Positions 7,520 to 54,387 of a DNA stretch of 64,000 bases are shown piece by piece. A model generated the notes under the pieces. It was not told the origin of the DNA. It worked only from the letters and a program-made list of their open reading frames with translations, and searched no databases. Each line of letters starts with the position of its first letter. Position 1 is the stretch's first letter. The DNA is taken from positions 62,001 to 126,000 of the forward strand of contig JAEBUN010000046.1 of assembly GCA_023014365.1 (NCBI GenBank), given 5' to 3'. The position numbers and the translations under genes are program-made. Source of the DNA: Lepiota brunneoincarnata (lineage: Eukaryota; Basidiomycota; Agaricomycetes; Agaricales; Agaricaceae).

Positions 7520-10500
7520 TCATTTCCTTAAACCTATAAGATCACAGAACTTCTCCACCTTGACTTGGGCAAGAGGTTTTGTAAGCAGATCAGCTGGCAT
7601 GTCATCAGTAGACAGGTGCTCAAGCTGTAGCTTTTTCATTGCCACCTTCTCCCTCAACCAATAATAACCCATGTCCAAGTGTTTCATCCTCCCATGGTGA
7701 TCAGGGTTTTTGGCAACAGACATTGCAGACTGGCTATCAGTGTATAGTACCGATGGGGCACATGGAGTATATCCAAGCTCTCCTAGCAATTTTTGCATCC
7801 ACAGGATTTCTTTTCCAGCTTCATTTCCAGCCACATACTCTGCTTCAGTAGTTGACTTGGTGACTACAGGTTGAAGCTTGCTTCTCCAACACACAACCCC
7901 CTGACCCAGCTTCACCAAATATCCTGTTGTGGATTTGCGAGAGTCCTTGTCTCCTCCATGATCAGCATCACAATATGTCACAAACATCCTATCACCAATA
8001 CTGGAGTCAGATCCATATGTGAGCTTATAGTCCAATGTACCCCTTAAGTATCGGAACAGGTGTTTAACAGCTGACCAATGAGCCATTCCAGGGTTAGCAT
8101 TGAAGCGTGCTAGTACCCCTACAGCATAAGCAATGTCCAGACGTGTTGTAGTGGCCAAATACATGAGAGAGCCAACAGCATTCATGTAAGGGATATTAAC
8201 CATCTTTTGCTTTTCCTCTGGAGTTTTTGGACAGTCATCTAGTGTAAGGACCTTATTAGGTATCATGGGTGTTGTTCGTGGTTTGCACTCTGTCATTCCA
8301 AACTCTTCCAACTTCTTTAGAATATATTGATGTTGGAACAGTGTCAATATGTGCTGTTGCCTATCTCGTTTGATTTCAACACCTAATAAGAATGATGTTT
8401 CACCTAGGTCCCTCAATTTGAAATGTGAAGATAATTCTTCCACAAACTGGTCCATTTTCTCAACAGATTTTGATGCAATTGTGATGTCATCCACAAACAC
8501 GGGGACGATTACCCGTACATCATCCCGGGCATAGAGGTAAACTGATGGATCACTGTGCAACCTATGGAAATTCATCCCTTCCATTACAGTTGCAAGTTTT
8601 TCACTCCACAGACAAGGTGACTGCTTTAACCCATATAGGGACTTGTTCAGTTTACAAACATACTCTGAACCCCCTTGCTCAAACCCTTCTGGCTGCTTCA
8701 TATATACTTCAGCATCAATATCACTATTGATAAAAGCATGAGATATGTCCATAGTACGCAGATTTAGGTCTTCAATAGCAGCCAGAGCAAGTATAGTTCG
8801 GATGGTACTCTGATGCATAGTTGATGCAAAGGTTTCAAAATAATCTTGTCCTGGTCGCTGACTAAATCCCTTTGCTACAATACGGGCTTTGTAACGCTCT
8901 ATAGAGCCATCTGCATTGTGTTTAACCTTGAACACCCATTTAGACCCAATTGCTTTCTCCCCTGGAGGCAGTGGTACAAGTGACCAAGTTCCATTTGTGA
9001 GGTGGGCATTAATCTCCTCTAGTGCTGCCTCATGCCATTTATCACCCTCACCATTTGGTCGCTCTAATGCCTCAGAGTATGACTGTGGTTCCATCTCTTG
9101 GCTATACTGAGCATTCTGTTGCTCATCCTCTGATTCTGAGTCAGTGACCAGTGGTTTGGGCTCTCTATGCTTCCAATATCCTAATGGGCGTGCCACATTC
9201 CGTTTGGGCTTTCGAATAGCAATTGGTCTAGAGTCAATTTCAGGTTCACTTGGTAGGCCTTCTCTGATATCATCATTCTGTTCATCATTTGCTTCAACTT
9301 GTCCAGTTGGTGGTATTTGTACACATGGAGTCAATGGGTCAGTGAGTGGTACCAGGATTGGTTCAGGGGCTGGTAGAACAGGTTCTTTATCATTTATATC
9401 ATTAGGTTGCAATTGGTGATGGAGAGGACCATTTAAACCAATATGCTCATCAAACTCTGCACGTTCACTGATAACTATTTTCTTTGTAACAGGATTGTAA
9501 AATTTCCACCCCTTATATCCTTCAGGATACCCAATGAATACACACTTTTCCATATGACTTCCAAGTGGTGACCTTTTATCCTTTTGGATATGGACATATG
9601 CGATACACCCCCAAACTCTAAGATGACTAACATCAGGTTTCTTGCCATACCATGCCTCATATGGTGTCATATTTGGCAGTACAGATGTGGGACAGCGATT
9701 CCAAACATGAACAAGTGCAGCAAGACATTCACCCCAGTACCCCTTTGACAGATTAGCTTCTGAGATCATAGCTGTGATCCTTTCATTAAGTGTTCTGTTT
9801 GCTCGTTCAGCAACACCATTCTGTTGTGGCCTATTTCGCACAGTATATTGTCTAGCAATGCCACAATCATCAAGGAACTTGATAAAGTTTGATCCCATAT
9901 ATTCACCCCCTTTGTCACATCGGAAGGTTTTCAGAGTGTGTCCAGTTTGATTTTCTGCAAACACTTTAAACCGCTTGAATGCATCAAATACATCACTCTT
10001 TCTCTTTAAGGGTATGACAACCCGAAATCGAGAGAAGTCATCAATAAATGTAACCCAATAATTGAAACCACCCAATGATGTTACTGATACTTGGTGAAGA
10101 TCAGAGTGAACAAGTTCTAATGACTGTGATGCTCTATGTTCTGAAGGGGGGAATGGGTTTGCATGCATTTTTCCTGCTAGACATGGCTCACAGATTGGAT
10201 CAGGCTTCTCAGATGAGCTTACTGTCATTCCACTAACTATGTCACTTTTGATCATCCATTTGATGTCCTCATAGTTGTGATGCCCAAGCCGTTTATGCCA
10301 CAGAGATAGATTCAGAGGGAGAGTTGATGCAATATGAACATTTTCTATATTTTCTACAGTAGAACCATCAAGATAACCAGTAGTACCTTTAACTGAACCA
10401 GTAAATAGTAATTGGTCTTTTTGGAAGAACTGTAGTTTATCAAGAGAAATGTGAACATCAATCCCTTTATGAAGAGTTAGGTATAGAACAGCAAGAAGAT

Positions 10501-11575
10501 TACTCCGTAATGCCGGAACATGTAGTACTCTGGTAAATTCAACATCTCTTTCTAATTGTCCATTAATAACTGGTCTGAAGATAACACGTCCAATACCCTC
10601 TGAATATACAATACTGTTGTCCGCAAGTCGAACAGGAACTCTAAATGGAGTGTAATCTTGTAACCAGCTTTTATGAGGGGTCATATGAGAAGAGGCCCCT
10701 GTGTCTATAATCCAATGGAAACTATTAGATGATGTAAAGCATGCCTCAAAACCAGAAAGAGTACTTGCCACATGAGCCGACTCTGGCATCTTCTCCCCAC
10801 TTTCCTCAACTCTGTGTGCCTCTGCTGTATTTGTCCCAACTTTGTCTTTGCGATCATGACACACTCTCGCAATATGCCCCACTTTGCCACAGACATAGCA
10901 AGTGACTACAACCCCTGGTGTCTTTGGTTTCCACTTTTTCTTTCCTCCAAAGCCTCCCACCATTGCCCGATTGGCTATCTCTGTTCGCTTTTGACGATTG
11001 AGGTCCTCATTTCGGAAGGCAGCAAGGACAGTTGACTTGGTCAATTTGTCCTGTAGTAGTAGTGCTGTTGACAGGTGCGCATAGTCCTCTGGTAATGCTC
11101 GAATCAATGCCATGCATTGTAGTTCCTCATCAAGATTGGTAATGGTGAACTTGGTAGGACGTAAATCCTGTATAGTTGCCATTGCCTTCTCTATTCGTGT
11201 CCCCAGATCAACTAATGATTCCTCATCATTCTTACGAATGGAGAAGAGATCATCATATGCATTGAATCGAGCACCAGGTTTCTTGGACTGATGCACCTCC
11301 TCAAGCTTCTTCCACATTTCAACTGGTTCCCCCACTAAATCTCGAACATGCACCCTTTGGTCACGATCCAGTAACAGATATATGTCACCAGCAGCCTTTT
11401 GCACCTTCAATTCCCAAGCATCTATATTCCCCTGATCCTTTTCAGGCTTTTTCTCCTTCCCACTGACCACATTCCACAATCCCTTTGACATCAACCATGC
11501 CTGCATTTCACCTGACCACTCTCCATAGTTGGAGTTGGTAAGAGGTGTAATTCTAGCACTGACTGAGTCAGACAT
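7520..11575 (-). CDS. copia Gag-Pol polyprotein (element 1)
   Basis: 1351 residues from the ATG at 11575. The frame stays open about 36 codons further upstream, but only from a TTG, and the sequence after the chosen ATG matches copia Gag starts. Order: Gag with a UBN2-like region (NYGEWSGEMQAWL); CCHC zinc knuckle CYVCGKVGHIARVC at residues ~226-239; aspartic protease DTGASSHM at ~291; GAG-pre-integrase LWHKRLGHHN; integrase core with HSDLH, CDKGGEY and NGVAERANRT; reverse transcriptase with FVDD near residue 1025, where YVDD is commoner; RNase H (YCDADHGG, YTDSQSA). The usual copia length is 1300-1450 residues, so this is full length. It copies the element's RNA to cDNA in cytoplasmic virus-like particles and integrates it. 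No stop or frameshift is seen. Confidence 0.95.
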   Translation of the reverse strand: MSDSVSARITPLTNSNYGEWSGEMQAWLMSKGLWNVVSGKEKKPEKDQGNIDAWELKVQKAAGDIYLLLDRDQRVHVRDLVGEPVEMWKKLEEVHQSKKPGARFNAYDDLFSIRKNDEESLVDLGTRIEKAMATIQDLRPTKFTITNLDEELQCMALIRALPEDYAHLSTALLLQDKLTKSTVLAAFRNEDLNRQKRTEIANRAMVGGFGGKKKWKPKTPGVVVTCYVCGKVGHIARVCHDRKDKVGTNTAEAHRVEESGEKMPESAHVASTLSGFEACFTSSNSFHWIIDTGASSHMTPHKSWLQDYTPFRVPVRLADNSIVYSEGIGRVIFRPVINGQLERDVEFTRVLHVPALRSNLLAVLYLTLHKGIDVHISLDKLQFFQKDQLLFTGSVKGTTGYLDGSTVENIENVHIASTLPLNLSLWHKRLGHHNYEDIKWMIKSDIVSGMTVSSSEKPDPICEPCLAGKMHANPFPPSEHRASQSLELVHSDLHQVSVTSLGGFNYWVTFIDDFSRFRVVIPLKRKSDVFDAFKRFKVFAENQTGHTLKTFRCDKGGEYMGSNFIKFLDDCGIARQYTVRNRPQQNGVAERANRTLNERITAMISEANLSKGYWGECLAALVHVWNRCPTSVLPNMTPYEAWYGKKPDVSHLRVWGCIAYVHIQKDKRSPLGSHMEKCVFIGYPEGYKGWKFYNPVTKKIVISERAEFDEHIGLNGPLHHQLQPNDINDKEPVLPAPEPILVPLTDPLTPCVQIPPTGQVEANDEQNDDIREGLPSEPEIDSRPIAIRKPKRNVARPLGYWKHREPKPLVTDSESEDEQQNAQYSQEMEPQSYSEALERPNGEGDKWHEAALEEINAHLTNGTWSLVPLPPGEKAIGSKWVFKVKHNADGSIERYKARIVAKGFSQRPGQDYFETFASTMHQSTIRTILALAAIEDLNLRTMDISHAFINSDIDAEVYMKQPEGFEQGGSEYVCKLNKSLYGLKQSPCLWSEKLATVMEGMNFHRLHSDPSVYLYARDDVRVIVPVFVDDITIASKSVEKMDQFVEELSSHFKLRDLGETSFLLGVEIKRDRQQHILTLFQHQYILKKLEEFGMTECKPRTTPMIPNKVLTLDDCPKTPEEKQKMVNIPYMNAVGSLMYLATTTRLDIAYAVGVLARFNANPGMAHWSAVKHLFRYLRGTLDYKLTYGSDSSIGDRMFVTYCDADHGGDKDSRKSTTGYLVKLGQGVVCWRSKLQPVVTKSTTEAEYVAGNEAGKEILWMQKLLGELGYTPCAPSVLYTDSQSAMSVAKNPDHHGRMKHLDMGYYWLREKVAMKKLQLEHLSTDDMPADLLTKPLAQVKVEKFCDLIGLRK

Positions 11576-11699
11576 AGTGATATCCAATAAATCCCCAATA
11601 AACTTGCAATAAAAGCGCAATATGGTGGCAATAAGCCAATAGTCACAGTAGCAGCAATATGCAGCAGTATCCCCAACAATCAATGATTAAAATGGTGTA

Positions 11700-24161: not shown

Positions 24162-27100
24162 TCATATACCATAGTGTACAAAAGGTACCCAAGAATCAAA
24201 CGATTCATGACCCGACTCTCGCAGCTTCTTGACGGCTTCATGCAGCGCTCGTGCTGCCCGTTCGCTGTTTGGTTGGTCCTCGGAAAGAAGATAGGAATAA
24301 ACGTTTTCAGCTATTATCAGAGCCGCTTCATCGGGTATTGCCCACATCGTCCCAATTACACTCCGATATCCTGCTCCCAACATCGCACCAGTAATGTGCA
24401 CTGCTTCATCCGACGCCTCCAAGTCTCCAGTCGCCGTTTCGCAAGCTGACAAGTACGCAAAGTCGGCATTGGCAAGTGGACTGGCAATGATATCTGTGAT
24501 TGCCAAACGGCCGTCATGGAGGTAAAAACCACTCTGCGTGGGTTCTTCTTCATCCTGAACAGCATGACATGCGAGATGGATCCAGCTGCTGTTCGCCATG
24601 TGAGTCAGCACCTGCTTTCCCGTCGCCTGCTCATTTCGAAGTCCTTGGAATTTCCACCCAGAGTCCGCTGAGAAAAGCTCTCCTATCTTAGTCATCTCTG
24701 TCTCTGCACATGGTAGCAAGCCTTGACCCGGGGTGTCGCTCATGGAGATACCGACAAGTTGGTTGAATGGCTGTTGTTTCATCGCTCGCGCCTCCAACAA
24801 AGCATTGATTGTTGGTGTGTATGACGAGATCACATAATTGAATGTCCCATCTATCCTAGCTCCCAAGGGACGACAGGCGGCATGAAGTGGAAGGAAGGTG
24901 AGGGGGCCGGTTGGACACCACCAAATGCGGGGAAGGGTTAAGGGATTACGCCCACCTATCTGAAACTATTGTCAGTGAGTGCATTCTATGATAGCGAGTG
25001 ACCATTGCCTTCAAACCCAAGGCATGAAGAATTGGATTCACGATACTTGAATAAAGTTTCGAGAGAATCCCGACTAGACGTGAATTTCCCCCCACTGATC
25101 CACTGCTTCGGCGGTGATACCCGCGATCGGAAAGATCATGCCCGAGGGATTTCCACATCTTATCCACATCCTCGTAGCGGAGCCTGTCCAGTGGAATATG
25201 GAGCACCTGATCTCTGCCTCGTTCTAGAATCAAGGCATCGCGCCGGCGCTCATGAACATTAACAATAACCACAGGACCTGAACTGGCAGCGTCCTTCAGA
25301 ACGGTGACCTTCTTTGGAAGTAGAAAGTCTCCAAACTCCGGAAGCGATTGGATTGTCTCGATAAGCGAGTACCACTTTTCAGCAAGGCGATGATGGTGCT
25401 GAGTTTCTTCCTCGAGGGAGCTCATCGGATCATCGGACATCATGGCATGTCCTCGGGTAGTTGCATGCCGGAGCTGATTTGAGACTTGGTCAAACTCAGC
25501 GCAGATATCTGGGTAAGCTTGCTGAAGGTCGTGTAATGAAGGTCGGAGGTTGAATAGCTGATTCCAAACGACTGCATGGCCTTGTTCAAGCCACTCAAGT
25601 GCAAGATCTGGTTGGCCAACATCAGGGGCGAATGCAGCGGCTTCTCTGGAAACGTCGCCAAGGTCGTTGAGTTGAGAATGTCGCGTGGAAATGGGATCTC
25701 CAATCCAAGCGACCTGTGGGATGAGATCGATGGCTCGGCGATAAGCATCCAAGGCGGAAAGTGAATCCCGGCTAGCTTCCAAGCGAGCCCATTCTCGGGA
25801 CGCACTGGATCTGAGTGAAGGTAAGCCAATGTTGGAGGTCGCGGCTGACCGAAAATGTGAAATCGCGTTATCCAAGTCACTGGATGACCCAGTGTGGTGG
25901 AACTAACTCTGGAAGGAAATAGCGAGATTTCTGAACCATTGTGGTTTGTTAGGATGGTCATCAGGGGTGAGCAACAGGGCCTGCTGATGATTTTGGATCG
26001 CTTCCTCAAGGTCACTAAGCACCCCTGTATGCTCGAACTGAACGTCGAAGGATGCTCCGAGGCTGCTGAGATGTTTTGCCTTGTCAAGATGGTCATCAGG
26101 AGTGAGCAATACTGCCTGCTGCAGGTTTTTAACCGCCTCCTCGATGTCGCTAAGCACCCCTGTATGCTGAAACCGAACCCCAAAGTGTGTTCCGAGGTTG
26201 GTGAGACGTGTAGGTCTGTCAAGGTGGTCGTCAGGAGTGAGCAGCACGGCCTGCTGCTGGTTTTTGATCGCCTCCTCGATGGCGCCAAGCGCCCCTGTGC
26301 GCCGAAACTGACTGTCGAGGCACATTCCGAGGTTGCTGAGATATGTTGGTTTGTCGGAGTGGTTATCAGGAGTGAGCAGCACAGCCTGCCGCAGATTTTC
26401 GATCGCCTCCTCGAGGTCGCTGAGCACTCCGGTACGCCGAAACCGAGCCGTAAAGGACATTCCGAGGTTGCTGAGATCTGCTTGTTTGTCAGGGTAGTAT
26501 TCAGGAGTGAGCCGCACGGTCTGCTGCAGATTTTTGATCACCTCATCGATGTCGCTAAGCACCCCTTTACGCATAAACTGACTGTGGAAGGCTGCTGCAA
26601 GGCTGCTGAGACGTGCGGCTTTGTCAGGATGATCATCGGGAGTGAGCAATACTGCCTGCTGCCCGTTCTTGATCGCCTCATCGAGGTCGCTGAGCACCCC
26701 TGCACGCTCAAACCGAATTACGAAGGATCTTCCGAGGTTGCTGAGACATGCTGGTCTGTCGGGGTGGTCATCAGGGATGAGCCGCACGGCCTGCTGCAGA
26801 TTTTTGGTCGCCTCTTCGATGTCGCTAAGCGCCCCTGTACACCGAAACCGATGCTCAAGGAATAATCCGAGGTTGCCAAGATGTGCTGGTTTGTCAGGAT
26901 GGTCATCAGGAGTGAGCAGCACGGCCTGCTGCAGATTTTTGATCGCCTCCCCGATGTCGCTAAGCACTCTTGTACGCCTAAATCAAATCCCAAAGCATTT
27001 TCCGAGGTTGCTGAGATGTGCTGGTTTGTCAGGGTGGTCATCACGAGTGAGCAATACTTTTTGCTGTGCGTTCCTGATCGCCTGCTCGAAGTGACTAAGT

Positions 27101-29623: not shown

Positions 29624-31228
29624 CAGTGACCCACAAAACTGTTCCAATGTTTTGTACTTTTGACTTAAAGTAGTAATAGCTCAGTTAATAAAATGGATAG
29701 ATTTGTGAATATATTTCTAAACATAGCCAAACATGTCATATCTGACCCTGCAAATTCACGTTATGTAATACTTCCAAATAAGTCAATTATGAATTTTGTA
29801 AGCATCTTAAGTCATTGGAACAGTTTTGTCAATGGTAATTTTTGATACTAATTCAAGCAATTACATGACTTTGTTGATTGTAAATCAACAAGATCATGTG
29901 ACTATGTGTCTTTGACATATAAATAGATGTGCTAACAGCCATGTCCTATCATTCTCAACCCCCCCACTTACCATAAAACCATTATCTTCTATTCTAAAGA
30001 AAACCATCCTCTCTATGCTAAATTCTCACCATTCCTATACTAAAATTGAGGCAATTGCTGGTGTTGGGCACAGTACCATATCCAGGCTAGCCTCTAAAAA
30101 TTGTTCCAGCCTTACCAAATCACTTGAAGGACATCCTTCAAAACTCTCTACTACCAATATCCAGTGTACTATCTATCTTATCTCTGCTGGCAAGGCTGAA
30201 ACTGTTGTAGATATAGCCAAATCTCTTGTTCCCATCATTGGAACATCAGTCTCTTCACAGATTGTGTTAAGGTATCTCAAACAGGCAGGAATGAAGGCTA
30301 TAGTCAAGCAAAAAAAGCCTTTACCCTTTGACAAGTATAGGAAAGCTAGGCTAGATTTTGCTCTGACACACCAGCATTGGACTGTGGAAGACTGGAAGCT
30401 GGTTGGATGGTCTGGTGAGACCAAAATCAATTGTTTGGGGTCAGATGGGAGGAAGTGGGGATGGAAAAAGAAGGGAGAGGGACTCAGTGAAAGACTGGTT
30501 CAGGAAACTCTGAAGTATAGAGGAGGATCAGTAATAGTTTGGGGTTGTATACTGTGGGATAGCCCAGGTTACACAGTGAGGATTGATGGAAGGATGGATG
30601 CAGAGTTGTTTGTGCAAATTTTGGAGGAGGATTTGAAGAAGAGTCTCCAGTGGTACAAGCTTAAACCCCAAGATATCATCTTCCAGCAAGATAATGATCC
30701 CAAACACAAGAGTGTATTGGCCCCAGAATGGTTTCAAAAATATCATTTTAGGCTGCTAATCTGGCCAGCACATCACCTGACCTCAATCCCATTGACCACT
30801 TATGGGATTATGTGAAGAAAATGCTGGGAGAGTATGAATCTCCTCTCAAGGGTATAAAGGAGTTGTAGTAGGAGGTAGAGAAGGAGTGGGATGCTATTTC
30901 AGCTTCTGATTATCAGAAGTTAATTGAAAGTATGCCTAGGAGAGTAGCAGCTGTTCTCAAAGCCAAAGGGAGCCACTCTAAGTACTAGAAATAATATGAT
31001 GGCCTGGTATAAAATGTCATTGACAAAACTGTTCCAATGACTCAACATGCTTACAAATTTCATAATTGCCCAGTTTGGAAGCATTACATAACGCGACTTT
31101 GCAGGGTCAGATATGACATGTTTGGCTATGTTTATAAATATATTCACAAATTTAGTCATTTTATCCATTGAGCTATTACTACTTTAAGTCAAAAGTATAA
31201 AACATTGGAACAGTTTTGTGGGTCACTG
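29624..31228 (+). mobile_element. Tc1/mariner-type DNA transposon, inactive
   Basis: 1605 bp with TA target duplicates at 29622-29623 and 31229-31230. Termini are CAGTGACCCACAAAACTG and its inverse. Terminal inverted repeats are unusually long, about 220 bp (29624-29849 and 31005-31228). Each arm has the outer motif CACAAAACTGTTCCAATG and, at its inner end, nearly the same motif in reverse (CATTGGAACAGTTTTG). The single transposase frame is damaged. Confidence 0.93.
30015..30990 (+). pseudogene. Tc1-type transposase, frameshifted
   Basis: ATG at 30015; 266 codons stay open. An N-terminal helix-turn-helix (KIEAIAGVGHSTISRLA) is followed by the DDE catalytic region. The first catalytic Asp appears to be Gly (WSGETKIN where the family has WSDE). 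The second is in FQQDNDPKH. A one-base deletion near 30770 changes the frame before the third acidic residue (NPIDHLWDYVKK, next frame). Two tandem TAG codons near 30866-30871 then interrupt that frame, which ends near 30988. It would bind the inverted repeats and cut and paste at TA if intact; this copy cannot. Confidence 0.88.
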
Positions 31229-38979: not shown

Positions 38980-41900
38980 TCAAAATTTGATGAAGGCCTC
39001 CCTCGGAAGGGCCTTAGTGAATATATCGGCAATCATTTGTTTAGTCGGCACATATTGTAGTGCGATTTTGCCTCGTTCAACGCGTTCTCAAATAAAATGA
39101 TAACAGATGTCGATATGTTTTGCACAAGAATGAGAAACCGGATTTCCAGATAACGCGATACAGCCTTGATTGTCAGCATGTATGATAGTAGTGGCCTCCT
39201 GAGGATAATCGAGCTCTTTGAGGAGGGTTCGAAGCCAGATTGCTTCCTTGGTGGCCATCGATGAAGCTATATATTCAGCTTCCATTGATGACGTGGCAAC
39301 AGTAGTCTGTCTCTTGGAAGACCAGGAAACCGAACTTCCGCCAAGTTCGAAAACAAAACCACTCACGGATCGCCCATTATCCGGATCCTGAGCCCAACTC
39401 GCATCACTCCAGCCAACTAAATCAATTTCTCCATTATTTCGGCATCTGAGAGCAAGTTGGAGGTCAATTGTCCCTTTGAGATATCGTAGAATGCGCTTAG
39501 CAGCGCTTAGGTGGGGAATTCCAGGATTATTTGCGAATTGAGTGATGAGTCCAACCGAAAATTGAATATCGGGTCGCGTTTGTGTCACAAAAAGTAAAGA
39601 ACCAACAAGCGAGAGGTAATGTATACCTCGGGCATATTCTTCATAAGCCTCAGTTTCGTCAACATATTGTGGGGATTGAGAATTCGATAAGCAATGATTG
39701 ACAGCGAGAGGAGTAGAAACTGGGTGTGAATTATGCATATTGAATCGTTCGAGAATTCGGTGGATGTATGCAGTTTGATTGAGAAAAATACGCCGATTCA
39801 ATCGATTGCGAGTGACCTGAATGCCAAGAATGTACCGAAGTTCCCCAAGATCCGTGATATCAAAGTGATCAGTAAGATTTTCCTTGAAGGAAATAATCTT
39901 ACAGAAGTTTGGGCCTGCAACTGCCATATCATCCACATAGACAAGTACCATGAGAAGCAATTTTTTGCCGTTCTGGAGAATGTAAAGGCAATCATCAGCG
40001 ATTGCATGAGTGAACCCAAGCGCAGATAATGTTTCATGTAGGCGTATTTTCCACTGTCGTCCAGCCTGCTTTAAGCCATACAGGGCTTTTCTCAGTCTCC
40101 AATATCGGCCATTATTCTGGATGTCATCTACTCCTTTCGGCACTTTCATATAAATTTCTTCATCTAGATTCGCCTCAAGATAGGCTCCTACAATGTCAAT
40201 TTGATGGATTTCAAAGTTGAGTGAAGCGGCTAGCGATAAAAACGCTCGAAGAGTTGTGAATTTCACCACGGAGGAAAAGGTTTCATTAAAATCAATTCCC
40301 TCGATCTGTGAGAATCCTTGGGCCACAATGCAGGCCTTGAATTTGATGTGATTCCCGTGTTCATCAAGTTTTCAGCGAAGCACAATTTTGCTTCCCACGG
40401 CTTTCTTTCCTTCTGGCAATTTGTCCACCCACTCGAAAACATTTCTTTTCTCCAATTGAGAATACTCGGTTTTAATGGCCTCCTTCCAACCATCGGCATT
40501 GGCAGAAGATATTGCTTCTTCATAAGTAGGTTCGTCAATGGCTATGAATGCAACATGACCATGTGATTCAAATTCGGTGCCATATCGTTTAGGTTGCCAT
40601 TTTTCACGAGTTGAAGGATCTTGTTTAGGGAAATTCTCCCACTTCTTCAATTTCCTAGGTACAGGAGGAACATTTGGTTCTTCTGAGGGTGCAGTAAGTG
40701 GCGTAACCGGTTCATTTTGAGGAGGCACTTCATAGGGTTCTTCAAGTTGGGGGATTTCTTCAGGAGGAGTTGAATCACCAATCGTGTCGTCAACTAGGTT
40801 GTTTACGTCTTCAGGCAAGGAATGAGTGAGTCCAATGTCCACAGATGCAACTTCACTTGGAGTATCATCTTCACTGAATTGAACGTCGCGGGATGTAATC
40901 AATTTCCCATTTTCTAGATCTTCAAGTCGATAACCTTTTGTTTCATCATCCCACCAACCCAACATCCGGACTCGAACAGCTCAAGATTCCAATTTACCAT
41001 GCTGAACCTCTTTTGGAATGTGTGCCCAACCAAGAGATCCAAAAATCCAAAGATGGGATACATTTGGTTTGCGACCTGTCCATGCCTCGAAAGGAACAAT
41101 TCCCTTGAGCGCTGAAGTTGAGGTAATTTGTCGAATGTGGATTGCATACATGAAAGCCTCACCCCAATATTGCAGGTCAATTTTGGCAGTGTGAATCATA
41201 CAACGGATCATTTCGAAGAAGACAGCGATTGCGCATTCAGCGATCCCGTTTTGTTGAGGTGTGTAGGGATTTGTGGTTTCGTGAATGATGCCGTTCCTAT
41301 GACAAAAGTCTCTCATTTCAGAGTTTACAAACTCATTGCCACTGTCGGTTTGGAGACGACGTGTTTGAAGGCCAGATTGTCTCTCCAACATAAAGACAAT
41401 ATCCCTAACAGCAACTCCAACATCCTCCTTCCTTTTTAGCAGCCTTCCCACAGGATAACGACAGCTTGCCTCAACCACTACAAGAGCATACAAATATCCA
41501 TCCCATGTCGGCACGCTTAATGGACCTGTCAAGTCCATAACGAGGAGCTCCATTTTCTCATATTTGGTAGTGCTCGAATCAGGAAGTGGGGCATGGTGTG
41601 ATTTTCCATGGGCACAACCGCTACATAGGTGGTCAAATTCATGAGGTGCATGGATTGATAATCCGTCTACAAGTTTTTGATCGGCCATAGTTTTTATGGT
41701 TCTAGGACCAATATGACCCATACGACGGTGCCAAAGGCGCATAGTGGAGGATTGTGCAACATATGCAACATGCTGTGCAGTTTCAATACTTTGGATTTGG
41801 TACAATGTACCGGTGAGTCCAATCAGATTGGCGCGGAGTAATTCATGACCTTTCCAGTATAGGATAATTCCACCATCAAAGCTTTGGATTTGTGCTCCAT

Positions 41901-43193
41901 CACACTGTAATGTCCCCATGCTGATCAAGTTTGCACCTAGACTCGGAATGTGAAGGACGTTGTCCAAAGTGATGTCCGTGATTGTAGAGTCTTGGTTAGT
42001 CCGAAAACGAATAGCTCTGTGTCCGAACACTTGGACCTGATGATGACCACCAACAGATACGTGTTGATCCTTCGTGTCATTGTACAATGAGAACAGTTTT
42101 CGATTTGCGACCATATGACAGCTCGCAGCACTGTCAAGAAGAAGACCAGAAGGCAAGTTTGACGAATCAACGGCCATTAAAACCTTTCCAACCTCGCGGC
42201 TTTCGATTTGGATGGGTTTGAGTTCATCGACAGCGATATTTGCAGTACCCATATTCCGTTTTTTTACCTTTGTAGGGCATGTTGGACTCCAATGACCTTT
42301 TTGACCACAAGTGTGACAAACGTCATCCGGTTTGGGTTCTCGTCTTTTCTTTCCCTTCTTCAGCTTATTTTTGTTGTCCATCACAGGCTTGGTTCCGCTC
42401 TCCCTATTCGAAGGATTGGTTTGTGTAACGAGTGCCAATGTTTTAGCCCTTTTGTCGGTTACAACAGCAATATCCTCTTGAACTAAACGTTCATAAACAG
42501 AAGTCAATTCTGTCATTACCATATCAAGGGTGAGTTTTGTTCCTTGATATAATAAACTCTGTTTGACGACTTCCCATGTCGCAGTATGCGGAAGTGACGA
42601 GAGCAAGGCATTGATGATAATGGTGTCATCCAAGCGATGACCAGCTTCGTGGATCTGGCGACGAATGTTGATATAGAAGGCGGTGTGTTCGGAGATAGGT
42701 AAGCTTCCATCCCATCGTTTCGAATAAAGCTTCTGATGCAGATAATGAACATTTAAGCCACTTTGCCTATCAACATAAAGAGTCCGAAGGCGATCCCACA
42801 TGTCCTCGGAGGTTTCAATATCAATGATGGATTCTCGTTGGGCGAATTCGATGGCGCCTCGCATTAGGCCCATAGCAGCATCGTCCTTGTTCAACCATCG
42901 ATCGTATCGATCTGTAGCTTGTTCCCAGCTCTGGAACTCCTTCAACTGGAAGATTTCAAGTTCACTAGAGACAGTTGATGTACTTCCTTCTTTATCCTTA
43001 TCAGCAACAGAAGTTGACATAGCACCAGCTTTAAGGGCAGCAAGTTTAGGAAACACATGAGGGGGCACAGGGGGACAACGCTCTCGACCTGTAACGCAGC
43101 TTTCATATTGTCAGCCCAGACATGATAGTTGCTGCCATTGAGCTTCGGAAACTGTAAGGTTTCGGAAGTTGTTTCGCGTTCCGTGGGGCCCAT
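38980..43193 (-). pseudogene. copia Gag-Pol of element 2, three stops and a frameshift
   Basis: The Gag start MGPTERETTSET uses an ATG inside the primer-binding site (43191-43193). Gag shifts frame near 43085, apparently through a small deletion just after NMKAALQV. Then one frame carries CCHC knuckle CHTCGQKGHWSPTC, protease LLDSAASCHM, GAG-pre-integrase LWHRRMGHIG, integrase (TDSGNEF, PQQNGIAE), RT (YVDDM) and RNase H (GWSDASWAQD, HADNQG). Stops are all TGA at 40981-40983, 40372-40374 and 39088-39090. Each is where the copia family usually has Arg (SRA..R, R-KLDE, YHFI-R-E), consistent with CGA to TGA. The true stop is at 38980-38982. Confidence 0.9.
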
Positions 43194-43544: not shown

Positions 43545-44879
43545 TGGTGCCTTTATATGGGCAATCCCACTTCGGAAGTCATCAACCTAGCACTGCAACA
43601 GACAATGGTCGGGTCATCAAATTTACATGCACGATGTATTTCTGCCTCATCGCGTGTGTATTTGCGACAGAATGAGCTAGACGGGGCCGAGTTGTCTTTC
43701 AAGAAAGCGATTGAGCTTTACCAGCAATCACATGATGTGCTTGGTGAGGCCAACGACGTCCAGAGCTTGGGAGAGCTGTATTTGCGACAGGATAAGCTAG
43801 ACGAAGCCGAGTCAACTTTCAAGAAAGCGATGGAGCTCTATCAGCAGTCGCATTCCGTGCTTGGTGAGGCTAACGACATCCAGAGCCTGGGAGACGTGTA
43901 TTTGCGACGGGATAAGCTAGATGAAGCCGAGTTATCCTTCACGAAAGCAATGGAGCTTCACCAACAGTCGCGCGACGTGCTTGGTGAGGCCAATGATGTC
44001 CAGGGCCTGGGAGAGGTGTATTTGTGACGGGATAGGCTAGATGAAGCCGAGTTATCCTTCAAGAAAGCGATGGAGCTCCACCAGCAGTCGCATTCCGTGC
44101 TTGATGAGGCCACGGATGTCCGGAAGCTGGGAGAAGTATATTTGCGACAAGATAAACTAGACAAAGCTGAGTCCTCTTTTGTAAAAGCGATGAAACTTCA
44201 TCAGCAGTCGCATTCTGTGCTTGGTGAGGCCAATGATGTCCAGAAGCTGGGAGAAGTATATTTGCGACGCAATAAGCTAGATGAAGCTGAGTCGTCCTTC
44301 AACAAAGCAATGGAGCTTCACCACCAGTCGCACTCTGTGCTTGGTGAGGCTGCTGATGTCCGGAACCTAGGAGAAGTGCATTTGCGGCGGGATAGGCTAG
44401 ACGATGCCGAATTGGCCTTCAAACAAGCGATTGAGCTTCATCAGCGGTCGTTTTCTGTGCTTGGTGAGGCCACTGATGTCCAGTTGCTGGGACAAGTGTA
44501 TTTGCGACAGGATAGGCTGCACGAAGCTGAGCAATATTTGAACCAAGCTCTTCTCCTTCACCGTCAGTGCCAGTCACCTCGAGATGAAACTACGGATTTA
44601 AATCTCCTTGAATGTGTTCGGAAGCACAGGAAGGTACCGCCTGCAGCATAGGACATTTTCGGTACTTTATGCATTATCTCATGTTCTCATTTTCAATCGT
44701 CTCCAGTGGTTCGACTTCGTTGTTGGTAGTTGGGTATGTAAATCTTCGAGAAGGATCTCATTCTCATTTGTTTCGTTGCAATAAACAAAATCTCTACTCT
44801 CAAACGAAAATCAACACATATACAATATCGGCAAATAATTTGTTAACGAGACCGAGGGAAATGAACAAGAAGAGATAGA

Positions 44880-46599
44880 GGAGAGTGGTGAGAAGGATTA
44901 ACTTGGTGCACTGAACGGGTCAAAATCTTGAGGTGGTGTGAGATCAATAGACAAGAAATTGAAGCACTGATATGCCGGCCGGCAAGATTAGCTTAAAGAT
45001 CGTAACTACTTCACTTCTCTGATGGTAGGTTTGATCTCATTGTGATGGGCCTAGATGAGGGTTAAACGCAAGAGAAAAAAGATGGGGGCTGGACGGCACA
45101 CGGAATAGGAGGGAGGACAGGGACAATCGCTGTTGATAGTTGCGGGGTGTCGGTGTTGTATGCAAGGCAGTCAGATCGGGAAGGGCTTATGGATCTGGGG
45201 GGTGTTCCTAGCAATTACCCCCAGTTTGGCTTTGATAATTACAGTAACACCGTGAAAATGGACTTTCCCAGAAGTCGTATCGGTCCTCGCAAAAAAAAAC
45301 CTTGTCGAAGTTCTGGCAGCGACACGGTTTAACCGGGGTGGACATATCAACATTGCTACGCGGGGGATGCGTGGATTCTTTGTGCAGACTAGCGTTACGG
45401 TGGTAGGATGCTAATGTCGACATTCGGTGACAAGAACCGGGGTGACAGGAGAGTGGAGGGAGGGCCGGCGCAAGTGCGGGAGTGGGAGCTGGACTATGTG
45501 AGAGAGCTGGAGAAGAGACCGCAGTAGGACTGGGTGCAATTAGAATGGGGGGTGCTAGCGAAGGAGCGGGCGCGGTAGCTGGTGCCAACCACAGGAACAC
45601 TTCAGCGCTTTTTCTGTTCCCCATTGTCATGCATGTGTTCTGGTATAAAAATGCGGAAGATGCCTTGATGGCACCTGTGACTGGCCGAAATTAAGCGGCG
45701 GTGGAGGCCTGGTAGGACCTAGCGATAGTAGCCAAGCAGAGCCTGGTGCCGGTAGTGTGGTAGCGAGTCGGGCAGCGGCGGTTGCGGGTAGATGGCAAAT
45801 ACGGTGTACCCCAAACGGAAATGAATGGCTGGCACAGAAGAGGGAGAGGGTATACCTGCAAAAAGATACGAGCAAAATAATGCATTTGGGCTTGGGAATT
45901 AGCCTTATATCTACATTGGGGGGGGGGGGGGTGGGGATCGGGATGAGGACACTGAGAGTAGAATGGGAGTCGAGGAGGAAGATGTGCAACTAGATACATG
46001 GCCTTCCGTGTCCCTTAGGAAAGCAGCAACGCAGGAGTGAGTCTAGACGGGTACTGGAATTTGGCCTTGAGCGCCTCGCAGGGGTTGGGGTCACGTGATA
46101 ATAAACACTCAAGAACTTCCTCTCTGAGGACCTCACGATTCCAGGCACCCATCTTCCTCACTCAAGTCAAATGAAAATTTGAGTTACAGGACTCGCTTGT
46201 GGTCTGTTATCCTGTGGGTCGCTCGCCGGGCATCTTTCCGAGCGGTGACTAAACTCGAAGCCATTTCTGCAGTCCGGCTCTGGTCGCCCACAACCTCACA
46301 CAGCGCCTCTCTAAATAGCCCTCAGATACGACTCCTTTTGACGTCCCGATCACTGTCTATCTTGGTAAGCAGGAGTGGTACAGCTACTTCGCAATGTGAT
46401 GACGTTAGCTCTCTGCAACACTCAGTAGCGATATCAACTTGTTGCAACCGCCAACGCTCTCTCTTACTTTGATCTCCTGCCAGCTGTGTTGTGTTTTCTA
46501 ACTTGTCGTGGGTACCATAATATTTTTTTTAGGCCCGCTCTCCGCCCAACTAATTGTCATGTCTGTCTCTTCCTAGCGTCGCCTAACTTGGCATACATA
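44880..46599. other. intergenic, nothing recognised
   Basis: Ala/Pro-rich frames on the minus strand (45208-45630, 45691-45999) look like composition effects. A run of 12 G lies near 45919. Presumed promoter of the CHAT gene at the right end. Confidence 0.4.
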
Positions 46600-49500
46600 A
46601 TGGCTCACAGTATCGCTGTGCCCGAGGGAGATCGGCATGGTATAGGCCCTGCCAGAGCAAGGAGATTTGCTGTCATCGGGGATACCCTCTATGATCGATT
46701 TGAGGAGACAGGAAAGCTTAGTGACCTGGAGAAGGCGATCACGAATCAACAACAGGCAGTGTCATTAACGCCGGACGGCCACCCCGACAAACCAGGGTAC
46801 CTCGACAGCCTCGGGAACTTCTTTCTGGGCCGGTTTGAGCACACGGAGATGCTGAGAGACCTTGAGGAGGCGATCAAATATCAAACGCAGGCGGTGTCGC
46901 TCACCCCAAATGATCATCCCGACAAACCGTCGTACCTCACCAACCTTGGGAATTCCTTCCAGAGTCGGTTTGAGCACTCGGGCACACCGACCGACCTCGA
47001 GGAAGCAATCAAGTATCAACGGCAAGCATTATTACTCACCCCAGATGGTCACCCCGACAGGCCGATGTACCTCGACAACCTTGGGAGTTCCCTCGAGAGT
47101 CGCTCTGGGTGCTCGGGAACACTGAGTGACCTCGAGGAGGCTATCCAGTATCAACGCCAGGCAGGGTTGCTCGTCCCAGATGATCATGCAGACAAACCAA
47201 TGTACCTCAACAATCTTGGGACATCTTTCGAGAGCCGTTTCGAGCGCACGGGAACACTAAGCGACCTCGAGGATACAATTAAGTGCCGACAACAGGCGGT
47301 GGCACTCACCTCAGATGACGATGCCGACAAACCAGGATATCTCAATAGTCTTGGTATTTCCCTCGAGAGCCGTTTTGAGCGCACAGGGGCACTGAGCGAC
47401 CTCGAGGATGCGATCAAGTACCAACGACGGGCCGTGTCGCTCACCCCAAGTGATCACCCAGACGAACCGAGATACCTGAACAACCTCGGGATTTCCCTTG
47501 AGAGTCGGTTCGGATGCACAGGGGTACTGAGTGACCTCGAGGCGGCAATCAGGCACCAAAAGCAGGCATTGTCACTCATTCCAGATGGTCATCCTGACAA
47601 ACCAGGGTACCTCAACAACCTCGGGAGTTCCTTCCGGAGTCGTTTCGATCGCACAGGGACACCGAGTGATCTCGAGGACGCGATCAAGTACCAACAGCAA
47701 GCACTGTCACTCGCCCCGGATGGTCATCCAAATACCCCAGGGTACCTCAACAACCTCGGGAGTTCCTTTGAGAGGCGGTTTGGACACATGGGGACAGAGA
47801 GCGACCTCGAGGAGGCACTCAAATATCAACAGCAGGCGGTATCACTCACCTCAGATGAACATCCCAAGAAACCAATGTATCTCGACAGCCTCGCAACTTC
47901 ATTTGAGAGTCGGTTTGAGCGCACGGGGACACTGAGCGACCTCGGGGAGGCGATCAAGTATCAGCAGCAGGCGTTATCACTGACCCCAGATGGCCATCCT
48001 GACAAGCCAGTATATCTCAACAACCTCGGGAGTTCATTCCAGGGTCGGTTTGGACGCGTGGGGACGTTGAATGACCTCGAGAATGCGATCAAGTATCAAC
48101 AACAAGCGGTTTCGCTCATCCCAGATGATCGTGCCAGTAAACCAGGGCACCTCAATAACCTTGGGGTTTCCTTCAAGAGTCGGTTCGAGCACACAGGGAC
48201 ACTGAGCGACCTCGAAGAGGCAATCAAATACCAACAACAGGTGGTGTTACTCACCCCAAACGATCATCCTGACAAACCACTATACCTCAACAACCTCGGG
48301 AACTCCTTCGAGAACCGGTTTGGGCGTACAGGGACACTGAGTGACCTCGAGGAGGCAATAAAGTGTCAACAGCATGCTGTGTCACTTACCCCAGAAAGTC
48401 ATCCCAACAAACCCTTGTATCTCAATAATCTCGGTATTTCCTTCCAGACTTGGTTTGGACGCATGGGAACACCGAGTCACCTCGAGGAGGGACTCAAACA
48501 TCAACGACAGGCAGTCTCACTCACCCCCGATGATCATCCCGACAAACCAGGGTACCTCAACAACCTCGGGATTTCCCTTGAAGGTCGGTTTGGGCACACG
48601 AAGACACTAAGTGACCTTGAGGATGCAATCAGGTATCAACAGCAGGCGGTGTCACTCACCCAAGATAGCCACGCCAGCAAACCAATGTACCTCGACAATC
48701 TTGGGCATTCCTTCCATTGTCGATTTGGATACACGGGGGCACTGAGCGACCTTGAGGACGCGATCAGGTATCAACAGCATGCGGTATTGCTCACCCCAGA
48801 TGGTCATGCCAATAAACCAATGTACTTCGAGAACCTGGGTGTTTCCTTTAACAGTCGATTCGAGCATACTGGATCACTGGGTGACCTGAATGAGGCTGTC
48901 TCGTATCATCAATCAGCTGCAACCTCCAGCATCGGCTCGCCTCTACTCCGGTCCCGTGCATCCCGACGATGGGCTCGCTTAGAAGCCCCACGAGATCAAC
49001 CTTCCGCCTTGGCCGCATACCGTCAAGCTATCAATCTCCTTCCACAAGTGGCTTGGATCGGAGATCCCATTGCTACACGCCATTTCCAACTGAATGACCT
49101 TGGTGATATTCCAAGAGAGGCCGCCGCATTTGCCCTTGATGCTGGCCATCCAGATCTTGCGCTCGAGTGGCTCGAACAGGGTCGTTCGGTCGTCTGGAAT
49201 CAATTATTCAACCTCCGTACTTCGGTCCACGGCCTCCATCAGGCTCACCCACATATCTGCGCCGAGTTCACACAAGTCTCACATGAGCTTCACCGTGCAG
49301 CCACCCGAGGGCGCACTAGAAGCACATCTGACAATGCCAACATCTCACTTGAGGAAGAAACCCAGCGTCATCACCGCCTCGCGGAGAAGTGGGATTTGCT
49401 TGTAGCGAAGATCCGATCTCTTCCTGATTTTGGAGACTTCCTTCTCTCAAAAAAAGTCTCTGTGCTGAAGGAGGCTGCCAGCACAGGTCCTGTCGTGGTT

Positions 49501-50623
49501 ATCAACATCCACCAGCGCAGGTGCGATGCGTTGGTGCTCGAACGAGGCAGAGACAAAGTCCTCCATATCCCTTTGGAAAAGCTTCGCTATGAAGATGTGG
49601 AAAGCATGCGGAAATCACTGGGACAATATCTCGCGAACCCTCATCGTGCTCAAAGACGGGCGGACCGCGCTGGTGGACCACTCCCAATGGGTGGTTCGCG
49701 CATAGTGGGGATCCTTGAGAGGATTTATTCGAATATCGTATGCCCTATTCTTCAAGGCTTGGGATTGACAGTAGGCACCCCTTACTATAGTGGAATGCAC
49801 TTACTGATATCGGCTGCAGACAGGTGGATCTGAACGAGACCCCTCGAACCTTCCTCACATTTGGTGGTGTCCGACAGGACCCCTCACCTTCCTCCCGCTC
49901 CATGCCGCCTGTCGCAGAACTGGCACTGAAATAGACGGGACATTTGACTACGTCATCTCGTCATACACACCGACAATCAATGCCTTGCTCGAGGCAAGAG
50001 CAGTAAAGCGCCGGCCATTCCACCAAATTGTCGGTATCGCCATGACCGACACGCCGGGCCAGAGCTCACTTCCAGGCGCCAAGACAGAAATAGCGAAGAT
50101 AGGAAAGTTTTTTTCTGATGATGCTAGATGGCGATTCGAAGTACTTCAGAATGAGGAGGCAATGGCAGAGCGAGTGCTGACACACATGGCGAACAGTAGC
50201 TGGATTCACCTCGCGTGTCATGCTATTCAGGATAAGCAAGAACCCACACAGAGTGGCTTTCGCCTCTACGACAGGCGTTTGTCAATTACTGACATCATTG
50301 CCAAACCTTTTGCCAATGCCAACCTTGCGTTTTTGTCGGCTTGCCAAACGGCGACCGGAGACGAGAAAACATTGGATGAGGCGGTGCACATTACTGGTGC
50401 GATGCTAGGGGCGGGATATCGGAGCGTCATCGGAACGATGTGGGCAATACCTGACGAGGCGGCTCCAATGATAGCTGAAAGGGTTTACGAGATCCTTCTT
50501 TCTGGGGGAGAGCCAAACAGCGAGCGAGCAGCACTAGCGCTGCATGAAGCCGTGGAGGCGCTGCGGAAGATGAACCATGATTCATTTAATTCCTGGGTAC
50601 CATTTGTGCATTATGGTGTATGA
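46600..50623 (+). CDS. TPR-CHAT domain protein 3, complete
   Basis: 1324 residues. Exon 1 is 46600-49770 (MAHSIAVPEGDRHGIG), the intron 49771-49819 (GTAGGC...CTGATA...CTGCAG, phase 0), exon 2 49820-50623. Residues ~40-790 hold 16 full and one partial 45-residue TPR (DLEEAIKYQQQAVSLTPDG...YLNNLGxSFxxRF), which form a superhelical sensor or partner-binding surface in this family. A linker like that of genes 1 and 2 (AAYRQAINLLPQVAWIGDP) leads to the CHAT domain, with catalytic His in HLACHAIQD and Cys in FLSACQTATGD. The usual Glu after that Cys is Gln here, unlike both sisters. No lesion is seen, so this is the one complete CHAT gene in the window. A cysteine protease activated through its TPRs is the expected biochemistry; the substrate is unknown. 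Confidence 0.93.
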
Positions 50624-53396: not shown

Positions 53397-53882
53397 AACT
53401 TGTCAAAAACAATTTGGTTTCGCAATCGGAGTGCAAAAGAGAATATCCAAGACACTGATGAGGAAGACGAAGGGGATTAATGTGTGGATGGAGTATTGTA
53501 TTTTAATTAATTAATTTGATATGCATCTTGGTTCGATTCCAAGACCTCGCACTTTCGCAGCTTGCTGCCCTATCTTCGGAGACGGCCGGCCTGATGCTTA
53601 AGTAAGGATCTGGCTAAGGAATTACACACAGACAGACGGACGAAAAAGCCGTAGTGTAAAAGACTACGCAGTGGGCCGGCCTCTCATCAGGTAACCATGC
53701 CGTGAGGGGTCCCGAGTGGGAGGGATGCCCCAGGCCCAGCCCCCCTTCCTACCTACCTGTATGGGGTCCCGGAGGCACCCCGGCACGCTAGCCGGTCCGC
53801 CAGATCAATTAATATATTGATTCATACTCCCCCACAGCCATCCTAAGTTAGGTAGTCTAATTCTGTCGCTACATGAGCCAAG
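53397..53882. other. flank between cysteine-cluster gene and ribozyme
   Basis: Includes GGTTCGATTCC on the plus strand near 53529, a Pol III B-box-like sequence, and a 6-bp hairpin CGTAGT...ACTACG near 53649-53668. No complete tRNA fold is visible. Confidence 0.4.
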
Positions 53883-53940
53883 GCGGGTTAGGGCAGCGGT
53901 TAAGCCCTCTGATGAGCCCCTTCGCAAGGGCGAAACCCGC
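53883..53940 (+). ncRNA. hammerhead ribozyme, type III fold
   Basis: All core elements occur in order. Stem III 5' strand GCGGGT (53883-53888); U at 53889 as position 17, giving the cleavage triplet GUU; stem I AGGGC/GCCCT (53890-53894 with 53904-53908) closing a 9-nt loop; conserved CTGATGA (53909-53915); stem II closed by G53916-C53931 with CCC/GGG inside; GAAA (53932-53935, its last A pairing with T53888); and stem III 3' strand CCCGC (53936-53940). Every stem I and stem III pair is Watson-Crick. It would self-cleave the plus-strand RNA after 53889. GUU is an allowed NUH triplet but weaker than GUC or GUA. Activity and host transcript are unknown. Confidence 0.8.
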
Positions 53941-54109
53941 ATAAGTCCCCCCATCATTGCATGATTTCTGAATGAAAAAAATGGGATCTAAATAGTTTTT
54001 TGTTCCTTCGGTCAGGGAGAAAGCTGACTTACCAGCTAACCTCTAGGACTAGGTCCTAAGAGTGTGAAATTCACCTTTTCAGGCATGCTCACTAAATCTA
54101 AATAGTTTT
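53941..54109. other. spacer with a 15-bp direct repeat
   Basis: ATCTAAATAGTTTTT occurs near 53985 and again near 54098, about 110 bp apart, possibly the target duplicate of a small insertion. Confidence 0.4.
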
Positions 54110-54387
54110 TCGGTAATGCTAAGACCCTTTCCGATGGCCATGCACAAGTTCAACCCAACCTCAATGATGAGCCGGCCGAGATTCGAGCCAGAAAACGTAG
54201 GATGACAATAAAGATACTCTTCCTCATTATCCTTTGAAGGGGGACACGTTGGGGTCTGGTTGGGCTTAATTTAGTTCTCTGCCGATCAGCGGTTGCACCC
54301 TCAAACAAAAATAGGACGACAAAGCACAAATGCCCAGTGATATCCAAATATAAACTTGAGAGATTACAAACGAGGACAGATCATGAA
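54110..54387 (-). repeat. SINE-like repeat, copy 2
   Basis: Aligns with 59345-59631 over nearly its whole length, from the CACAAGTTCAACCCAAC block to GAGGACAGATCATG. The minus-strand B-box region is GGCTCGAATCT, two mismatches from consensus. Confidence 0.55.

Follow-up and report, generated by a model that had tools for sequence, protein, structure and literature searches.

The window, by which we mean the whole 64,000-nt stretch of DNA analysed, holds a complete type III hammerhead motif at 53883-53940 (+), and this raises the question of what carries the motif and how its carrier is copied. The motif, claimed in the initial annotation, could be read directly from the sequence. Its parts stand in the right order and 15 of its 15 pairs are Watson-Crick, which bears out the claim. 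The parts are as follows.

53883-53888 and 53935-53940, + strand: stem III, GCGGGU with ACCCGC, 6 bp
53889, + strand: U17
53889/53890, + strand: cleavage predicted here, 3' of U53889 in the triplet GUU, from the RF00008 alignment
53890-53894 and 53904-53908, + strand: stem I, 5 bp
53909-53915, + strand: CUGAUGA
53916-53919 and 53928-53931, + strand: stem II, 4 bp, with an 8-nt loop
53932-53935, + strand: GAAA
53909-53935, + strand: the 27-nt core (CUGAUGA, stem-loop II and GAAA), used for copy counting

Loops I and II have 9 and 8 nt, respectively. The features of the class RF00008 (Rfam hammerhead type III) are present, namely the core CUGANGA...GAAA, three helices, an open stem III and an NUH site. 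RF00008 was also the top Rfam match of the window, with 33.0 bits. The E-value was 2.3e-5 when 451 nt were searched and 0.0033 when both strands of the 64 kb were compared with 4227 families, and dividing the latter by 4227 gives about 8e-7 for a single family. At the Rfam gathering cut-off, which requires 48.5 bits, RF00008 gave no match. The MFE fold of the 58-mer contains the three hammerhead stems plus one extra junction pair, and its fold energy was not unusual (z -1.09; 29 of 200 shuffles were equally good). The stronger argument against chance is recurrence: across the 55.6-Mb genome, the 27-nt core turned up at 118 places when at most 3 mismatches were allowed, and the reversed-pattern control at 0. 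We regard the hammerhead motif as confirmed, and self-cleavage is predicted from its sequence.

The hammerhead had been placed between a gene and a SINE-like repeat. This was wrong, since the hammerhead is the 3' part of that very repeat.

53526-53953, + strand: complete copy of the hammerhead retroposon, with boundaries common to many copies
53941-53953, + strand: 3' tail ATAAGTCCCCCCA, the putative start of reverse transcription, with a 3' end common to copies

The element has 428 bp and 57% G+C, contains no ORF of at least 150 aa, and is represented in the window by this copy only, as far as was found. Just downstream of it lies a 15-nt exact direct repeat, ATCTAAATAGTTTTT, at 53986-54000 and 54096-54110, 110 nt apart. 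The boundaries of the element came from a comparison of the window copy with L002-L060, comprising 43 distinct copies including L001. The end statistics were drawn from L001-L104 (104 loci), which yielded 60 distinct matching stretches from 54 loci. Overall, the full 5' end was present in 32 of these stretches, the full 3' end in 46 and both in 26. The 3' end fell on the last base of the tail in 46 of 60 and at most 3 nt away in 8 more, so that copies mostly keep the 3' end, their 5' end is variable and shortening is chiefly 5'. The core was exact at 43 of the 100 core places listed. The tail GCATAAGTCCCCCCA was counted 52 times exactly and 83 times with at most 1 mismatch in the genome, and it also occurred at a few places beyond the 100 listed hammerhead places. 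Six 5' heads without a listed hammerhead were fetched and turned out to be copies broken at six inner places. Two regions, G000:C20:128742-134350 and G000:C26:238598-244186, each hold two element copies at near-equal spacing and with flanks identical on both contigs, which represents either a segmental duplication or an unmerged haplotype. Exact element patterns gave 0 matches in bacterial and archaeal genomes. An RF00008 search of the genome itself gave 0 matches among the 68 candidates scored of 11264, but since 0 of 14 control genomes matched as well, this result carries no weight. The element shares with SINEs that it is short, non-coding and dispersed and that it has 5'-shortened copies. 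The repeat family, its ends and the motif are thus established, as are the permuted tRNA-like halves described below. We interpret this hammerhead-bearing short dispersed repeat as a non-autonomous SINE-like retroposon. The suggestion that the carrier is a small retroelement is supported.

We then asked how well the hammerhead is kept among the copies. The alignment had 54 rows: 34 came from 40 similarity-search places, and the other 20, absent from the list of that search, contain a match to the 27-nt core as well and were mostly brought in by it. In the 52 copies spanning the hammerhead, the core was kept in 44, all 15 pairs in 35 and both in 30, and the low divergence in this set is partly a matter of choice because the 20 core-matching rows favour intact copies. 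The check proposed in the initial annotation, a covariance-model search together with preserved pairing among genomic copies, thus came out mixed, as the 33.0 bits lie below the 48.5 of the gathering cut-off and the pairing is intact in 35 of 52 copies of a core-favoured set. For the 34 similarity-picked copies, non-CpG divergence was 15/1632 in the hammerhead against 48/3065 in the adjacent body (Fisher p 0.08). In a shared-versus-singleton test, shared variants were rarer in the ends, though weakly so: p was 0.05 when the hammerhead was taken whole, 0.13 when its 27-mer was left out and 0.02 when the T-arm was added to this remainder. Double changes from G-C to A-U in stem III (L029, L030 and L053) were considered as compensatory covariation and set aside, because there are CpG sites on both sides and L029 and L030 had also lost a core G. 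Therefore, the divergence, shared-variant and covariation comparisons of the aligned copies gave no clear signal of selection on the hammerhead. As to the kind of change, G>A (160) and C>T (145) outnumbered A>G (86) and T>C (98) in the aligned copies. The CpG columns of the hammerhead differed at 21/340 letters and the other columns at 15/1632. This excess of CpG change resembles methylation-like decay.

Beside the hammerhead, the two ends of the element carry the following tRNA-like features. Box A and box B were identified by their consensus, that of box A being relaxed at one place.

53527-53543, + strand: hairpin CTTGG-TTCGATT-CCAAG, resembling a T-arm and lying at the very 5' end, from the T-arm scan
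53530-53540, + strand: box B GGTTCGATTCC, full consensus match in a both-strand pattern scan
53544-53550, + strand: ACCTCGC, in the tRNA-like fold the 3' strand of the acceptor stem, pairing at 6 of 7 positions with 53883-53889
53883-53889, + strand: GCGGGUU, the 5' strand of stem III plus U17, and also the 5' strand of the acceptor stem
53889-53899, + strand: box A-like TAGGGCAGCGG, the sole match that the relaxed box A pattern gave on either strand
53890-53908, + strand: hammerhead stem-loop I, overlapping the D-arm of the tRNA-like fold

Within its first 25 nt, the element thus has a T-arm that includes a perfect box B and then a strand of acceptor type. One A-like box and one box B were found on the + strand and none on the - strand. 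The internal Pol III promoter that SINEs have at the 5' end is absent here, because boxes A and B are inversely ordered and at opposite ends; in the element's own order, the tRNA-type boxes are not a promoter. When the 3' end of the element is joined to its 5' end, the outline of a tRNA-like cloverleaf appears, with 6 of 7 acceptor pairs, a 3-bp D-stem and a 5-bp T-stem. A scan for cloverleaves in which box A precedes box B gave one hit in the element, across this 3'-to-5' junction. Of the shuffled elements, 1 of 20000 gave any such hit, and 48 of 5000 did so with the genuine T-arm end left unshuffled, under permissive criteria for the acceptor, D- and T-arms that were written after the candidate was seen. 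By the same after-the-fact criteria, the element has the feature of a permuted tRNA gene, a 3' half lying upstream of the 5' half and folding with it as a cloverleaf. ARAGORN at default settings called no tRNA in the window and none in the joined ends. At relaxed settings it called a low-scoring tRNA at the joined ends, but also another on the opposite strand of the element. The tRNA-like halves therefore do not form a working tRNA, but are either the mimic of one or the relic of a promoter-like sequence. Stem III 5' strand, U17 and stem I share their letters with the acceptor 5' strand and the D-arm, so that hammerhead and cloverleaf compete for one strand. A genomic tRNA parent of the two halves was also looked for, and none was clear among the tRNAs in 30 loci, out of 59 tRNA matches. 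The genomic tRNA genes include some with introns, which, like the Copia and TPR/CHAT genes of the window, fits a eukaryote.

The sites of insertion bear on how the element moves. On the tail side (n=35), certain bases were over-represented: C at +2 (18 flanks, p 0.005), T at +3 (19, p 1.6e-4), T at +5 (19, p 3.9e-4) and G at +6 (15, p 0.007); positions +1 and +4 gave p of about 0.1. On the head side, the lowest p over 12 positions was 0.044 (29 flanks). A one-sided target preference is expected of non-LTR elements, in which the nick made by a LINE endonuclease primes reverse transcription. The common 3' end, the 5'-shortened copies and the base preference on the tail side indicate a LINE-type, TPRT-like mode of retroposition. 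Unlike in a textbook SINE, no target-site duplications were found in 28 copies, the mean longest shared word being 4.54 against 4.48 in shuffled flanks. As for a possible partner, the endonuclease family PF14529 matched 128 genomic places, several of them inside 1310-aa open frames; the same search also matched 3 of 14 prokaryote control genomes, and the family suggests that these places are LINEs. Clusters of the matches lie on contigs C9, C11, C23 and C27 of G000. Several of the frames share the length of 1310 aa, suggesting a recently active family. Helitrons have a 5' TC, a CTRR 3' end and insertion between A and T. A Helitron was considered and dropped, as the element ends in CCCCCCA and its flanks vary.

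How, then, is the element copied? We tentatively favour a SINE-like retroposon, probably LINE-mobilised, that carries a type III hammerhead within the 5' half of a tRNA-like promoter and is copied by way of a circle. The element RNA would cleave itself at 53889/53890, and the cleaved ends would be joined into a circle by a reaction of the tRNA-ligase type, which has been reported in vitro for retrozymes. In the circle, the tail and the body would remain linked. A LINE reverse transcriptase would start at the CCCCCCA tail, copy the circle and stop at TCTTGG after one lap. Copying of one lap would explain why the full copies are cut at one place inside the tRNA-like fold. Self-cleavage of a linear RNA at 53889/53890 would sever the tail that starts reverse transcription from the body.

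The copies themselves allow this to be examined. The cleavage site was ungapped in 43 of 46 aligned 3'-complete copies, the exceptions being L037, L044 and L056, which means that the template was either uncleaved or religated. A cleaving linear RNA might be expected to leave some genomic ends at the cleavage site. No genomic place had the exact 17 nt upstream of the site followed by a non-A, and no 5' end lay at 53890 among the 60 stretches, the nearest start being at 53885 (L098). L110 and L048 break near GCCAAGG, just 5' of the hammerhead; with distances of 6 and 12 nt to the predicted cut, these breaks were ruled out as cleavage ends. Intact sites together with the absence of ends at the site leave two options: either the hammerhead has next to no activity, or the ends that it produces are ligated again. 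The dinucleotide CA, with which the element itself ends, preceded 14 of 46 exact 5' ends, where about 3 are expected at 1 in 16; this excess may be a target preference, and it includes duplicated loci, at least 2 pairs sharing duplicated flanks. The cost of the hammerhead fold over the MFE was 1.2 kcal/mol locally, 7.3 in the circle and 7.0 at the head-to-tail junction; masking of this sort is described for a plant retrozyme (PMC4918200). The source of the RNA is the weak point of the circle model, as a monomer with a single hammerhead cannot release a circle unaided. A head-to-tail dimer or an unpermuted parent was found 0 times by exact patterns and was not among the 40 candidates scored of 272. 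GUU is a weak hammerhead triplet, which also counts against the circle.

Because neither a dimer nor an unpermuted copy was found and each transcript has one hammerhead, our preference for the circle is no firmer than tentative, and a linear SINE-like retroposon with a weak hammerhead is a rival of real, if limited, plausibility. Here, read-through transcripts would be trimmed to the 5' T-arm hairpin and copied from the CCCCCCA tail; the hammerhead would be weak or masked, or the tRNA-like region would bring it along as a by-product. The copies found are all monomeric, as a linear element would have them, none ends at the cleavage site, and the 5' end lies exactly at the base of a 6-bp hairpin. 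The hammerhead gives no clear sign of selection and does not diverge clearly less than the body outside CpG. It is also masked by 3.3 kcal/mol in the full-length linear fold. What a linear element leaves unexplained is that its two ends complete one cloverleaf, and that 30 of 52 copies, some of them chosen by their core, retain this core together with all 15 pairs.

From algae, permuted tRNA genes are described whose maturation passes through circles (PMC3978253, in the passages cited), and they inspire another explanation, which we consider improbable: the element would be a permuted pre-tRNA-like RNA whose TCTTGG and CCCCCCA ends are made by the tRNA-splicing machinery, and the hammerhead would later open or regulate the circle. 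This would account for the sharp ends without any dimer, and, as in those genes, the 3' half comes first and a spacer separates it from the 5' half. Nevertheless, ARAGORN calls no functional tRNA, and the spacer has 332 nt here against 7-74 nt in one alga (PMC3978253, same passages).

An integrated viroid-like or ambivirus-like circular RNA, as once suggested for this locus, is very improbable: its 428 nt and hammerhead fit the viroid-like range of size and motif, but the hammerhead matches on one polarity only, self-complementarity is ordinary (z -0.49; 60% paired as a circle, with no rod-like fold), the element carries tRNA promoter boxes and a LINE-like target bias at its insertions, and one 26-nt element pattern had 0 exact matches in viral contigs.

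Returning to the circle, a bolder version of it seems to us unlikely as a whole, but is worth stating. The hammerhead would have arisen within a Pol III promoter of tRNA-like form, where one strand folds either as cloverleaf or as hammerhead, and each circularly permuted copy would be one lap of a hammerhead-made circle, LINE-primed at a fixed internal tail. This would make the element a non-LTR retrozyme of type III. Circular RNA has been proposed as the template of retrotransposition for retrozymes, and it is hard to prove from DNA. Permuted tRNA-like halves are a footprint not readily left by linear copying, so that the sequence of a single junction would be a direct test of the circle. If true, the reading would tie type III hammerheads to a SINE-like family and suggest that a hammerhead stem can derive from the D-arm of a tRNA.

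Plant retrozymes and viroid-like RNAs are the best-known carriers of type III hammerheads. The element described here is a hammerhead retroposon that departs in tested defining traits from LTR retrozymes as well as from metazoan retrozymes, typical SINEs and viroids. With the plant LTR retrozymes, for which a circle is proposed as template, it shares a type III hammerhead, the nature of a non-autonomous retroelement and the masking in the full-length fold (PMC4918200, in the part cited). The plant elements have two hammerhead LTRs, PBS, PPT and 4-bp duplications (PMC7761336, as excerpted), whereas no second hammerhead or duplication was found here. Metazoan non-LTR retrozymes are likewise small and non-coding, without LTR, PBS or PPT, and have circular RNA; in the excerpts cited they are of type I and mostly tandem repeats, whereas the present hammerhead is of type III and no tandem copy was found (PMC7229834, PMC7761336). 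Sm-alpha and Sj-alpha of Schistosoma are also short dispersed SINE-like elements with a hammerhead (PMC2770079, PMC8490949, passages cited). Their hammerhead is of type I (stated there for Sm-alpha) and their copies exceed 10,000, in contrast to type III, 118 core places and permuted tRNA-like ends here.

Among fungi, genomic hammerheads of Yarrowia are tied to interspersed repeats (PMC3088659, in excerpt), but are of type I by the descriptor used (PMC4870747, in excerpt), unlike the type III here. In Pleurotus, five Rfam type III (Hammerhead_3) hits are listed, with no element assignment given in the cited part of the paper (PMC5040776). Helenus, a TRIM with a tRNA-like LTR, provides a tRNA-type promoter in a small retroelement, also within Agaricomycetes. 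It differs in having LTRs, PBS, PPT and, in fungi, 5-bp duplications, and the cited part of its description does not mention permutation (PMC10886601). The titles and abstract openings of the open-licence literature held no description of this architecture, a fungal SINE or retroelement with a hammerhead, which is not proof of novelty.

The window contains other mobile and repetitive sequences. A Copia-type region at 7520-11683 (-) has a single 1387-aa open frame with gag, integrase and RVT_2 domains, and a second one at 39088-43068 (-) has RVT_2 in the frame 39088-40326. The frame 30015-30815 (+) encodes the Tc3-type transposase DNA-binding domain HTH_Tnp_Tc3_2. Finally, frames with TPR repeats and CHAT-like frames recur at 57-2566, 24162-26967 and 43557-50623; those at 46486-49833 (TPR) and 49985-50623 (CHAT) were assigned by profile scan and the others by eye.
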